Positions 33,386-36,393 of a stretch of 64,000 nucleotides of DNA are shown here, piece after piece. The position numbers and the translations under genes were made by a program. Source of the stretch: Streptomyces sp. NBC_01571 (GTDB lineage Bacteria; Actinomycetota; Actinomycetes; Streptomycetales; Streptomycetaceae); the NCBI RefSeq assembly GCF_026339875.1, contig NZ_JAPEPZ010000001.1:5766001-5830000 (forward strand), in the 5' to 3' direction. Every line of letters begins with the position of its first letter. Positions within the stretch are counted from its first letter, which is position 1. A model generated the notes under the pieces. It searched no databases, was not told where the DNA came from, and saw only the letters and a list, made by a program, of their open reading frames with translations.

Positions 33386-34337
33386 TGAAGCCCCCAAGGG
33401 TGGTGGTGTCGCTGGGGTCGCCGGAACGACCGCAGCAAGCTACCAGGAGCATGCGTGAACGCCTCGGGCGAGTCGTGCGGAGTACGTACGGATGTCCTGA
33501 GCGGTCCGGTCCTATCCGGTCGGGCCGGGTCGGGTCCGTTCCCTCCGGGGCCGTCCGGGAGGCCGGCGGCACCCGCCGCCGCACCGAGTGGGCCTGCGGG
33601 CTCGACGGGCCCGGTGGCCTGGTGGCGCGATGGCCTGGAAGTGGCTCCGGCGTGATCGCTATTCCGTCCCGGAGATCCGGTCCGCGGCCCGCGCGCAGGG
33701 AGACGGGGCCCTGCCCCGTCCCACCCCTAGGTGCTGGACCGCGGGCGAGACCGCGTACGGCGACGGCGTCGGGCCGCCCCGACCGCGAGAGCGCCGACCT
33801 GCCGAAGAGGTTCCTCCGCGACGGTGAGGGGCTCCGCGACGGTGGGGTCGGCCGTGCGACTGTAGGGACGGGAGGGGGAGCTGGTGTGTGCGAACGGGAA
33901 CGCGGGGGAGAGGGCATCGCGGCCGTACCGCCGCACCTGCCGCCGACCGGGTCCTGGGCCGGAGGTTGAAAACCGGACGTTGAAGCCGAACGTTGAAACT
34001 CGAAAGGCTCGCCCTGCGTCTGTTCCTAGTACATAGGGATTCGACCCGGGCGAACCCGTACGGATGCCGGGGCGGACGAGCATGCACGGGGGGCGGAGGT
34101 CGTGTGTCGGGCGACTTCCGGGGCAGGCGAGGGGCCGTCGGCGGCCCGGCGGGCAGCAGGCCGTAGTCAAGCGGACAGCAGGCAGTAGTCAAAGGCCGGT
34201 AAAAGCTGTAACCGTGGGACCACCCCCCGTGCACGTGCATCTGCTCATGCATCTGCACATGAACAGAGCTATGATCCGGGGCAGTTGGCCACTGCATCAA
34301 TGGCCACATCGGCCACTGCACGACCGGGGAGCGACCT
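33386..34337. other. 950-bp gene-poor region before the DUF397 gene
   Basis: No gene I can support. Open frames at 33630-33827 (+) and 33727-34170 (-) have Arg/Pro-rich composition without ribosome sites. Features seen: GTTGAA three times (33965, 33979, 33992); a 22-bp imperfect direct repeat (34150-34171, 34172-34193, words AGCAGGC and TAGTCAA); and the shared promoter element at 34230-34256. Confidence 0.5.
34230..34256 (+). promoter_or_regulatory. Shared 27-bp promoter element, copy 1 (DUF397 gene)
   Basis: GTGCACGTGCATCTGC-T-C-A-TGCATCTG. It matches the element at 35307-35333 (minus strand) at 25 of 27 positions. It contains a direct repeat of TGCATCTG, 13 bp apart. Its centre is about 95 bp before the DUF397 GTG. 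A -10 TATGAT at 34271-34276 lies 14 bp downstream. Confidence 0.8.
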
Positions 34338-34598
34338 GTGGACCACGACGTGTGCGACGTGGATGACGTGTACAACGGCATGGCTGCGACAGAGCTGACC
34401 GGGGTGGCCTGGCAGAAGAGCAGACACAGCAACTCGCAGGGATCCTGCGTGGAGTTCGCGAGGCTGCCGGGGGGTGACGTGGCCGTGCGGAACTCGCGGT
34501 TCCCCGAGGGGCCGGCGCTCGTCTACACCCGCGCCGAGATCGAGGCGATGCTCCTGGGCATCAAGGACGGCGAGTTCGACCACCTGATCGCGGGCTGA
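34338..34598 (+). CDS. DUF397 protein
   Basis: 86 residues, GTG 34338 with GGGGAGCGACCT upstream. The DUF397 core is clear: LTGVAWQKSRHSNSQGSCVE, then FARLPGGDVAVRNSRFPEGP and ALVYTRAEIEAMLLGIKDGE. About 22 extra residues precede it (MDHDVCDVDDVYNG). DUF397 genes sit next to WhiJ-like XRE regulators and are thought to modulate them; many affect sporulation or antibiotic timing. Here the XRE gene is at 35530 and a HATPase gene lies between, in opposite orientation. Ends at the hairpin 34682-34711. Confidence 0.92.
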   Translation: MDHDVCDVDDVYNGMAATELTGVAWQKSRHSNSQGSCVEFARLPGGDVAVRNSRFPEGPALVYTRAEIEAMLLGIKDGEFDHLIAG

Positions 34599-34681
34599 GG
34601 GCGGGGTGCCGGCGGACCGGTACCGAGTGCCCGTTCCGTGAACGCGGCGCGGTCGTCACCTCGCGCCGCGTAACGCGCGTA

Positions 34682-34711
34682 GAACCGCGGCGCCGAAAGG
34701 CGCCGCGGTTC
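34682..34711. terminator. Bidirectional terminator, DUF397 and HATPase genes
   Basis: Perfect 13-bp stem GAACCGCGGCGCC / GGCGCCGCGGTTC with a GAAA tetraloop, followed on the plus strand by TTC. It lies between two convergent genes. Confidence 0.85.
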
Positions 34712-34712
34712 T

Positions 34713-35231
34713 TCATTCGGCCGGGGCCGTGGCGGGGGCGTGCGGCGGGAGCCGGAACAGCGCCCACACGACCTTGCCGCTGAGGGTGCCCGCGAGCGGA
34801 TGCCAGCCCCAGCTGTCGGCGAACGAGTCGACCAGGAACAGGCCCCGGCCCGACTCCGCCGAGAAGTCGTCCGAATCGCCGGCCACCGGACTGTCGTGAC
34901 TGGGGTCGCGCACCGCGCACACCAGACGTGAGGTCCACCGCATCAAGTGCAGCCGCACGGGCGCGCCTTGGTCGTCCGCGCGGGGCGTGTCCGAGGGCAG
35001 CGCGTGTCGCAGCGCGTTGGTGACGAGTTCGGAGACCACCAGGCACACGTCGTCGAAGCGGTCGCCCATGTCCCACTGGTCCAGCGTCCTGCGCGTGAAC
35101 CGCCGGGCCTCGCGCACCGCTTCGTAGCGTGCGGGCAGGGCACAGGAAGCGGCGCTGGACACGGCCGCGGGATCGAGCGGCGGAAGTCCCTGCCGTAAGG
35201 GCTCGAGCATGGTCGATCCATTCGTCCCCAT
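34713..35231 (-). CDS. HATPase-type regulatory ATP-binding protein
   Basis: 172 residues from ATG 35229-35231. RsbW/SpoIIAB-like ATP-binding fold: N-box helix DVCLVVSELVTNALRHALPS (Asn retained), G1 region VCAVRDPSHDSPV, and G2 ESGRGLFLVDSFADSWGWHP. It has no anti-sigma linkage in view; in streptomycetes such proteins are the abaA-type partners of XRE/DUF397 genes. Shares a promoter element with the DUF397 gene. Divergent from the XRE gene. Confidence 0.88.
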   Translation of the reverse strand: MGTNGSTMLEPLRQGLPPLDPAAVSSAASCALPARYEAVREARRFTRRTLDQWDMGDRFDDVCLVVSELVTNALRHALPSDTPRADDQGAPVRLHLMRWTSRLVCAVRDPSHDSPVAGDSDDFSAESGRGLFLVDSFADSWGWHPLAGTLSGKVVWALFRLPPHAPATAPAE

Positions 35232-35529
35232 GCGAGGCACTCCCGGGTGTTCGCGGTCGTTGCGATGCAGCGGTGGCGCGGGGACCATGGTTCCGAATGC
35301 GTACAGCAGATGCAAGGGCAGATGCACGTGCACGCGCCCGAACTGAAGTCTTTTGCCCCCTTTTCCAGCTACTTCTTCTGTCGTCTTCTTCCCTCTTGTT
35401 GGCCCTCGCGTGCCCCTTTGCTGCGCGGTGCCTTCGGAAGCTTTCCGTTTCTGTAATCGAACGAGTACTGCTTGAAGTGTTTTAGTGGCAGACTTCGGCG
35501 TCTGAAGACGGTTGGGGAGGCGGACGAAC
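35232..35529. promoter_or_regulatory. Divergent control region, HATPase and XRE genes
   Basis: 298 bp. Contains copy 2 of the shared element (35307-35333). On the plus strand 35347-35400 is pyrimidine-rich (TTTTCC, CTTCTT and similar runs), so the minus-strand leader is purine-rich there. GTTTTAGTGG near 35478 may hold the XRE -10. Confidence 0.55.
35307..35333 (-). promoter_or_regulatory. Shared 27-bp promoter element, copy 2 (HATPase gene)
   Basis: Minus strand reads GTGCACGTGCATCTGC-C-C-T-TGCATCTG, 25 of 27 identical to copy 1 and in the same orientation relative to its gene. Centre is about 89 bp before the ATG. Confidence 0.8.
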
Positions 35530-36393
35530 GTGAGCGCTGGTGAGTCGAGCGGCTCTGTGGTGCGGCGCATGCTGCTGGGGTCACATCTGCGGCGCCTGCG
35601 GGAGGCGCGCGGCATCACCAGGGAAGCGGCCGGCTACTCGATCCGTGCCTCCGAATCGAAGATCAGCCGCATGGAGTTGGGACGGGTGAGCTTCAAGACG
35701 CGCGACGTCGAGGACCTGCTGACGCTGTACGGCATCACGGACGAGGCCGAGCGCACCTCCCTGGTGTCCCTCGCCAAGGAGGCCAACGTCGCGGGCTGGT
35801 GGCACAGTTACTCGGACGTGCTGCCCAGCTGGTTCCCGACCTACGTCGGCCTGGAGGGCGCGGCCCACCTGATCCGGTCGTACGAAGTCCAGTTCGTGCA
35901 CGGCCTGTTGCAGACCGAGTCCTACGCCCACGCGGTCGTCGCGCGCGGCATGAAGGGCGCGAGCGCGGCCGACATCGAGCGGCGGGTGGCGCTGCGTCTG
36001 GAGCGGCAGAAGTACCTCGTCTCCGAGAAGGCCCCGGAGTTCCACATCGTCCTCGACGAGGCCGCGCTGCGCCGTCCCTACGGCGACCGCGAGGTGATGC
36101 GCGGCCAGCTCCAGCATCTGATCGAGGTGTCGGAGCGCCCCAACGTGCGCCTCCAGGTGATGCCGTTCAGCTTCGGCGGCCACTCCGGCGAGAGCGGCTC
36201 CTTCACGATCCTGAGCTTCCCCGAGTCCGATCTGTCGGACGTCGTCTATCTGGAGCAGCTGACCAGCGCGCTCTACCTGGACAAACGCGAGGACGTCACC
36301 CAGTACGAGAGTGCGCTGAAGCAGTTGCAGCAGGACAGCCCCGGGCCGTCCGAGAGCCGCGATCTGCTCCGTGGACTGCTCCAGCTCTCCTGA
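35530..36393 (+). CDS. WhiJ-like XRE regulator with DUF5753 domain
   Basis: 287 residues, GTG 35530, with GGAGG 9 bp upstream. N-terminal HTH_XRE: LGSHLRRLREARGITREAAG then YSIRASESKISRMELGRVSF. From about residue 95 the DUF5753 domain: EAAHLIRSYEVQFVHGLLQT-like start (here LEGAAHLIRSYEVQFVHGLL), VALRLERQKYLVSE, FHIVLDEAALRRPYGDREVM, LQVMPFSFGGHSGESGSFTI, DVVYLEQLTSALYLD. This is the DNA-binding member of the DUF397/HATPase/XRE set. WhiJ-type proteins repress developmental genes until relieved by a small partner. Confidence 0.93.
   Translation: MSAGESSGSVVRRMLLGSHLRRLREARGITREAAGYSIRASESKISRMELGRVSFKTRDVEDLLTLYGITDEAERTSLVSLAKEANVAGWWHSYSDVLPSWFPTYVGLEGAAHLIRSYEVQFVHGLLQTESYAHAVVARGMKGASAADIERRVALRLERQKYLVSEKAPEFHIVLDEAALRRPYGDREVMRGQLQHLIEVSERPNVRLQVMPFSFGGHSGESGSFTILSFPESDLSDVVYLEQLTSALYLDKREDVTQYESALKQLQQDSPGPSESRDLLRGLLQLS

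Follow-up and report, generated by a model that had tools for sequence, protein, structure and literature searches.

Which protein reads a 27-bp element that stands, almost unchanged, upstream of two genes of one developmental-type locus in Streptomyces? The element lies in a 64,000-nucleotide stretch of Streptomyces sp. NBC_01571 (contig NZ_JAPEPZ010000001.1, positions 5,766,001 to 5,830,000; hereafter the window), once upstream of a gene for a BldB-like DUF397 protein and once upstream of a gene for an AbaA-like HATPase of the anti-sigma type, next to a gene for an XRE regulator of the WhiJ family. Clusters of WhiJ-, AbaA-, and BldB-like genes are numerous in each Streptomyces genome and, as far as the available parts of the literature tell, their direct targets are largely unknown; in these parts, an operator has been mapped for WhiJ9, and the other reported target is chiA, for Cpb1. 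A preliminary description of the window had proposed that one regulator, most likely the adjacent XRE protein, governs both genes. Our comparative data fit this proposal in three respects: the presence of the element at both genes, its linkage to the XRE gene, and its co-variation with the recognition helix. Because the sites are conserved and in register with their promoters, are linked to the XRE gene, and change together with the recognition helix, we consider it very likely that the adjacent WhiJ-family regulator uses the element as its operator.

Two copies of a 12-bp tandem repeat

Copy 1 of the element (34229..34255, plus strand) precedes the DUF397 gene (34338..34598, plus strand), and copy 2 (35307..35333, minus strand) precedes the HATPase gene (34713..35231, minus strand). 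The preliminary description had set copy 1 one base too far to the right (34230-34256) and copy 2 correctly. It was also right that the copies agree at 25 of 27 positions, the two differences lying in a variable triplet (TCA versus CCT), that each copy is directed at its own gene, and that copy 2 is centered 89 bp upstream of the HATPase ATG at 35231; the distance from the center of copy 1 to the DUF397 GTG at 34338, given there as about 95 bp, is about 96 bp. The direct repeat within the element, TGCATCTG, recurs with a period of 12 bp and not 13 bp as had been stated (at 34236 and 34248 in copy 1, at 35307 and 35319 in copy 2), which matters because 12 bp defines the repeating unit. The element can thus be written as head-to-tail units of the form TGCACGTGCATC/TGCYCWTGCATC: in copy 1, 34230-34241 (TGCACGTGCATC) and 34242-34253 (TGCTCATGCATC), with a degenerate third unit beginning at 34254, and in copy 2, 35321-35332 and 35309-35320 on the minus strand.

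The pattern GTGCACGTGCATCTGCNNNTGCATCTG has exactly two matches in the window, copy 1 and copy 2, and no match in 100 dinucleotide shuffles with up to three mismatches allowed. Across all 11.5 Mb of the genome, only two sites match the 24-bp form perfectly, both of them in the window, and the next best site has two mismatches; the inner 20-mer has one additional exact match, inside a cluster of similar matches at G000:C1:3267188. None of 200 random sequences with matched dinucleotide composition reached the self-match of the DUF397 upstream region at lag 12. The corresponding signal of the HATPase region is weaker and was reached by 6 of 200.

Counting the G of GTGCAC as motif position 1, the −10 hexamer of the DUF397 promoter, TATGAT (34270..34275, plus strand), occupies positions 42 to 47, as it does in 52 of the 59 loci compared (see below). 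The HATPase promoter has a weak −10-like hexamer, AACCAT (35287..35292, minus strand), in the same register; 58 of 60 loci have AACCAT (42 loci), AACGAT (12), or AAGCAT (4) there. A GGAAC that is conserved after the HATPase site resembles the −35 element of sigma-E promoters, and this region is probably better read as a −10, because its register matches that of TATGAT at the DUF397 promoter. In both promoters, the TGCATC box of the second unit (positions 20 to 25) is 16 bp from the −10 and therefore stands where the −35 belongs; neither promoter has a good −35 of its own. If transcription starts about seven bases after the −10, the two units would be centered near −41, where a class II activator would sit. 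At the DUF397 promoters of three loci (L081, L085, L091), extra units are inserted, and the last TGCAT-like box still starts 22 to 23 bp before the −10. Since the distance from the last box to the −10 is retained in these loci, the arrangement argues for repeating units rather than a single fixed palindrome, as judged from the letters; binding as a dyad is nevertheless possible, because the TGCA boxes are self-complementary.

Conservation of the sites and linkage to the XRE gene

The XRE gene (35530..36393, plus strand, 287 amino acids; GTG start inferred from the ribosome-binding site) encodes an N-terminal XRE-type helix-turn-helix (HTH) domain and a C-terminal DUF5753 domain (Pfam PF13560, 57.3 bits, and PF19054, 200.6 bits), both exceeding the curated cut-offs, and has DUF397 and AbaA-like HATPase genes as neighbors, all of which are marks of the WhiJ family. 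A search at E 1e-60 found relatives of the protein, among them paralogues, in all of the Streptomyces genomes covered (61 of 61). With the window counted in, the HATPase gene is present in 60 of 61 loci and the DUF397 gene in 59 of 61; a paralogue locus (L102) lacks both, and in L099 the contig ends. For the comparison of sites, we used 60 loci besides the window, namely, one orthologous locus from each of 59 genomes plus the paralogue L102, with none from G001 (79% complete).

The preliminary description had named absence of the element from orthologous loci as the result that would speak against it; in the Streptomyces loci that we examined, both genes have it. Over 24 letters, all 59 DUF397 upstream regions contain the motif with 0 to 5 mismatches and all 60 HATPase upstream regions contain it with 0 to 3 mismatches, and the best of 20 single-base shuffles per region had 7 to 11 mismatches. 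Positions 2 to 24 of the HATPase site are invariant or nearly so among 59 distinct sequences. Averaged over columns, agreement amounts to 0.91 and 0.98 within the motif, 0.76 to 0.77 at positions 28 to 41, and 0.65 to 0.70 in the outer flanks. In 80 named Streptomyces loci, both sites were found in 76 at no more than five mismatches; in the remaining four, the second (HATPase) site is present with one extra base between the units. Where the gap between the HATPase and DUF397 genes has widened to 1.0, 1.3, and 3.4 kb (L087, L091, and L289), each gene retains its site.

The exact core GTGCACGTGCATNNGCNNNTGCA occurs in 195 of 199 Streptomyces genomes, and a reversed-pattern control gave one match overall. 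There are never more than two exact sites per genome (two in 144 genomes, one in 51, and none in 4, as counted by hand), and the four genomes without an exact core have variants beside the same genes (L200; L297 to L299), although in L298 the core scan located a site near the HATPase gene only. The shuffles and the recurrence of the element across the 199 genomes rule out chance and an assembly artefact as its origin. The small number of exact sites in each genome, one or two, marks the regulator as a local one.

Beyond the genus, we took a class-wide sample of 246 genomes, in which an XRE homologue (E 1e-75; up to nine candidates scored per genome) was found in 75 (22 from Streptomyces and 53 from other genera). 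Perfect sites of the general pattern TGCACGTGCA-N8-TGCANNNGCA number 29 outside Streptomyces, and these fall in 22 of the 53 XRE-positive genomes versus 0 of the 171 XRE-negative genomes. Twenty-three of the 29 lie less than 2 kb from a listed XRE gene. Five further perfect sites, all in one genus, precede a DUF397 gene by 50 to 70 bp; four of them have an XRE gene nearby, and at the fifth the contig ends. In the sister genera of the family, a stricter pattern was found in 17 of 51 genomes, and all 19 of its sites lie within 2 kb of an XRE gene; the 20 best-scoring XRE loci returned from these genera all have the core TGCACGTGCA within 1.5 kb. In three loci of related families (L263, L267, L275), a single site lies between the HATPase gene and the XRE-DUF397 pair, and in L260 to L262, the core is about 200 bp upstream of DUF397.

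Two further arrangements were seen outside Streptomyces. In two loci of one genus (L271 and L272, genomes G288 and G384), the operator and a −10 lie between the DUF397-XRE pair and a divergent gene with a GGDEF motif, a probable diguanylate cyclase, at which the promoter is directed; it is possible that the regulator is linked there to cyclic di-GMP. In one family (L284 to L287; genomes G411, G302, G420, and G394), a related family of sites, TGCACATGCAT...TGCA, recurs; profiles found no XRE gene of the group in the 4 kb fetched, and a weak HATPase match lies more than 300 bp off.

Co-variation with the recognition helix

The recognition helix of the XRE protein, located by homology to XRE-type HTH domains, is SESKISRME (residues 41 to 49; aligned codons 35650..35676, plus strand), and Ser43 (35656-35658) is the residue that differs in a sister group. 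Outside Streptomyces, the helix reads SESKIS in 16 of 19 aligned homologues, whose whole proteins are 55 to 64% identical. Counted by rows, in which some loci appear twice, the core TGCACGTGCA lies within 2 kb of 87 of 91 genes encoding SESKIS, 5 of 7 encoding SASKIS, 5 of 7 encoding SHSKIS, and 1 of 9 encoding SHAKIS. The paralogue of L102, which is 74% identical, has the helix SAVSIN, no partner genes, and no site. We then drew up a non-redundant table of matches above 360 bits to the XRE profile, in which identical proteins are counted once and L265, L277, and L280 are excluded as duplicates or split. Among proteins that have Ser as the third helix residue and are encoded next to a HATPase or DUF397 gene, 93 of 95 have the core; among those that have Ala there, 1 of 11 has it, and 8 of 11 show TGCAA units at a 12-bp spacing instead.

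The intergenic regions of this Ala-type group, the sister XRE group in Streptomyces, have tandem 12-bp units of the form TGCAAGNACNNN upstream of the DUF397-XRE genes (L300, L301, and L305, the last with the helix SHAKIS and likewise with TGCAA units 12 bp apart). L300 has seven in-frame units, L305 has six, and L301 has five to six, though runs of three arise by chance in the same listing. The self-match at lag 12 exceeds that of all 200 random sequences in six of eight Ala-type loci, with 1 and 3 of the 200 in the other two. The number of units varies, from two in the window to between five and seven in-frame units in some Ala-type loci, and the spacing between the promoter-proximal TGCAT box and the −10 is retained. 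We tentatively suggest that this branch of WhiJ proteins reads head-to-tail 12-bp arrays by a switchable code, in which Ser would select TGCACG and Ala TGCAAG units, so that sister circuits within one cell would not cross-talk and the length of the array could tune the switch. A single helix residue may in this way set which cluster a regulator serves.

Several observations weigh against assigning the element to the XRE protein. Four of the 91 SESKIS proteins lack a nearby site, and both Ser-type exceptions that have partner genes but no core carry the helix SESKMS. Among Ser-type proteins without partner genes, the core is present in 2 of 15 and absent in 13. Most of the 95 Ser-type cases with partners are Streptomyces orthologues, so the counts are not independent, and the independent points are a few lineages. 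In the sister genera, 34 of 51 genomes lack the strict pattern although 49 of 51 have the XRE gene (E 1e-95). With one mismatch allowed, the general pattern is found in 30 of 53 XRE-positive and 25 of 171 XRE-negative genomes (counted by hand); the reversed control also matches many genomes at one mismatch, and we therefore take the matches in XRE-negative genomes as background. One perfect site (G288:C1:4806369, L288) is unlinked, with no related gene within 2 kb. Finally, 12 is not the top lag in the window: 22 is narrowly ahead at the DUF397 region, and 10 and 13 are ahead at the HATPase region. The published sigma-E site listed for sco3424 was looked for in the S. violaceoruber locus and was not found.

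The unlinked L288 site has a structure of its own, consisting of tandem TGCATA/TGCACG hexamers, and no gene of the WhiJ, DUF397, or HATPase type is detected by profiles at a distance of up to 2 kb.

Mode of control and related systems

In our model, the XRE regulator would bind the two head-to-tail 12-bp units (TGCACGTGCATC, TGCYCWTGCATC) in the position of a class II activator and switch on the HATPase gene and, in parallel, the DUF397 gene. The DUF397 product would then probably act back on the XRE regulator, as proposed for BldB and for the WhiJ partner SCO4542, and a local feedback loop is predicted, that is, a closed circuit for which no genome has more than two exact sites. A further control may act on translation of the HATPase. 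In Streptomyces, TTA codons make translation dependent on the bldA tRNA. The HATPase gene has an in-frame TTA at codon 12 (35196..35198, minus strand), and a TTA is found in 52 of 60 loci, in 50 of them at codon 12, the window included; in the matched segments, 0 of 61 XRE genes and 0 of 59 DUF397 genes have one. This conserved codon marks the HATPase gene as a bldA-dependent gene, implying that its translation would require the bldA tRNA.

An HTH protein overlapping the −35 is also the arrangement of lambda cI at OR2/PRM, an XRE-type case of class II activation, and the likeness is that of a potential activator at this place; the lambda operators are dyads, whereas we propose a head-to-tail 12-bp unit. 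Provided that the XRE protein binds, we judge activation to be somewhat the better supported outcome, together with DUF397 feedback, and repression comes second as a possibility that is still to be taken seriously. We rank them in this order because of WhiJ9 of Streptomyces venezuelae: in the available parts of PMC10294661, activation of iosA in a bldB mutant requires WhiJ9, and the abaA paralogues go up in that mutant as well, driven, as the authors speculate, by neighboring WhiJ proteins. The same observations speak against the closest competing explanation, in which the same XRE protein occupies the −35 region of both promoters and so represses them, and the DUF397 protein relieves the repression, as has been suggested for WhiJ and SCO4542. 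This explanation shares the binding step with our model, and the overlap of the second unit with the −35 position in both promoters suits it; moreover, whiJ genetics have been read as repression (PMC4255298 and PMC6262351, in the parts available), and WhiJ9 appears to repress its own gene (PMC10294661, likewise). The lack of a good −35 in both promoters and the weak HATPase −10 (AACCAT) suit an activator better, and we regard repression of both genes as rather unlikely.

It is improbable that the element is read by another regulator, such as a sigma factor or a global developmental factor, with the XRE gene as a passenger of the locus. Sigma-E studies, as far as their accessible parts go, do list sco3423 and sco3424, and the tie between the XRE protein and the site is one of sequence comparison. 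However, a global factor does not fit with the finding that none of the 199 genomes has more than two exact sites, site presence tracks the XRE gene across genera, and the operator letters track the XRE recognition helix; in addition, none of 20 loci of other WhiJ-like genes in the same genome (G000) has the core TGCACGTGCA. As for sigma-E itself, a scan of the Streptomyces loci for the published sco3424 site did not find it, the best match in L181 having 6 mismatches in 23 positions. That the similarity is a functionless relic of promoter duplication or gene conversion is very improbable: a duplication when the DUF397 gene moved is plausible, given the single site that serves the HATPase-XRE-DUF397 cluster in related families (L263, L267, L275), but conservation is far higher in the motif columns than in the outer flanks, among genomes with XRE identity down to 66%, the two copies retain distinct conserved triplets and −10s, and neither flanks as conserved as the motif nor a motif absent from distant orthologues was found.

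A WhiJ-type regulator with a direct-repeat operator is already known as a kind. WhiJ9 binds three direct repeats of the consensus CGXXCTCAAC (PMC10294661, in the part available), and the operator at iosA-whiJ9 resembles ours in that a WhiJ-family XRE gene lies beside a BldB-family (DUF397) gene and short direct repeats lie at the cluster promoters, here TGCATCTG at 12 bp in both copies. Unlike the three copies of the WhiJ9 repeat, there are two separate sites here, which overlap the −35 of the HATPase and DUF397 promoters and have TGCATC boxes 12 bp apart, and the units TGCACGTGCATC/TGCYCWTGCATC do not follow the WhiJ9 consensus. A search for WhiJ9 repeats at 12-bp spacing (CTCAACNNCGNNCTCAAC) gave matches in 57 of 121 genomes; these matches may lie in coding sequence.

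The whiJ cluster SCO4542-SCO4543-SCO4544 of Streptomyces coelicolor has the same three kinds of genes as the window (PMC4255298 and PMC6262351), and the available part of PMC4255298 states that, as of 2013, nothing had been learned about the targets of WhiJ. Unlike in that cluster, target sites are proposed here, and the DUF397 gene stands apart from the XRE gene with its own promoter. The SCO3421-SCO3424 locus (PMC4255298 for SCO3421 and SCO3423; PMC6767563 for sco3424) is very probably orthologous to that of the window, to judge from its description and not from its sequence; an operator is not described in the parts of these papers at hand. Cpb1 of Streptomyces lividans, the orthologue of Scr1/SCO4441, is a WhiJ-like XRE protein reported to bind the chiA promoter (PMC6262351, in the part available), and its target, unlike here, is a chitinase gene outside the cluster; the part available does not give the binding site. 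With regard to the idea that XRE-DUF397 pairs are toxin-antitoxin systems, no toxicity was found for Scr2 in the accessible text of PMC6262351.

Among the matches listed (titles and abstract openings), we found no published description of the operator, the DUF397/HATPase pairing, the −10 register, the conservation beyond the genus, or the Ser/Ala relation. New in this work are the operator, its occurrence in two copies, one at the HATPase and one at the DUF397 promoter, the −10 register, its conservation beyond the genus, and the relation of the Ser/Ala helix residue to the unit sequence. A genus-wide operator common to both promoters makes the published speculation that WhiJ controls abaA testable by oligonucleotide binding, and a little-understood developmental switch gains a precise, testable target.

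A single motif for all WhiJ clusters was also considered and rejected: the 20 other G000 loci lack TGCACGTGCA, with a best match of 7 mismatches, and in 17 other G000 intergenic regions, at least 16 of 200 random sequences match or beat the self-match at lag 12. By eye, perfect or near-perfect palindromes lie upstream of other WhiJ-like genes in the paralogue loci L244 to L248 of this genome, e.g., TTGGCAATTGCCAA in L244 and L245, and these are possible operators of another type.

As to the gene products, the DUF397 protein (86 amino acids; Pfam PF04149, 66.3 bits) has a GTG start, read from the sequence, with GGGGAG 6 nucleotides upstream, and the HATPase (172 amino acids; HATPase_c_2, PF13581, 49.5 bits) starts with the ATG at 35231. 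The Protein Data Bank (PDB) held no sequence relative of the XRE protein or of the DUF397 protein. An aldehyde dehydrogenase gene comes after the XRE gene in the window.

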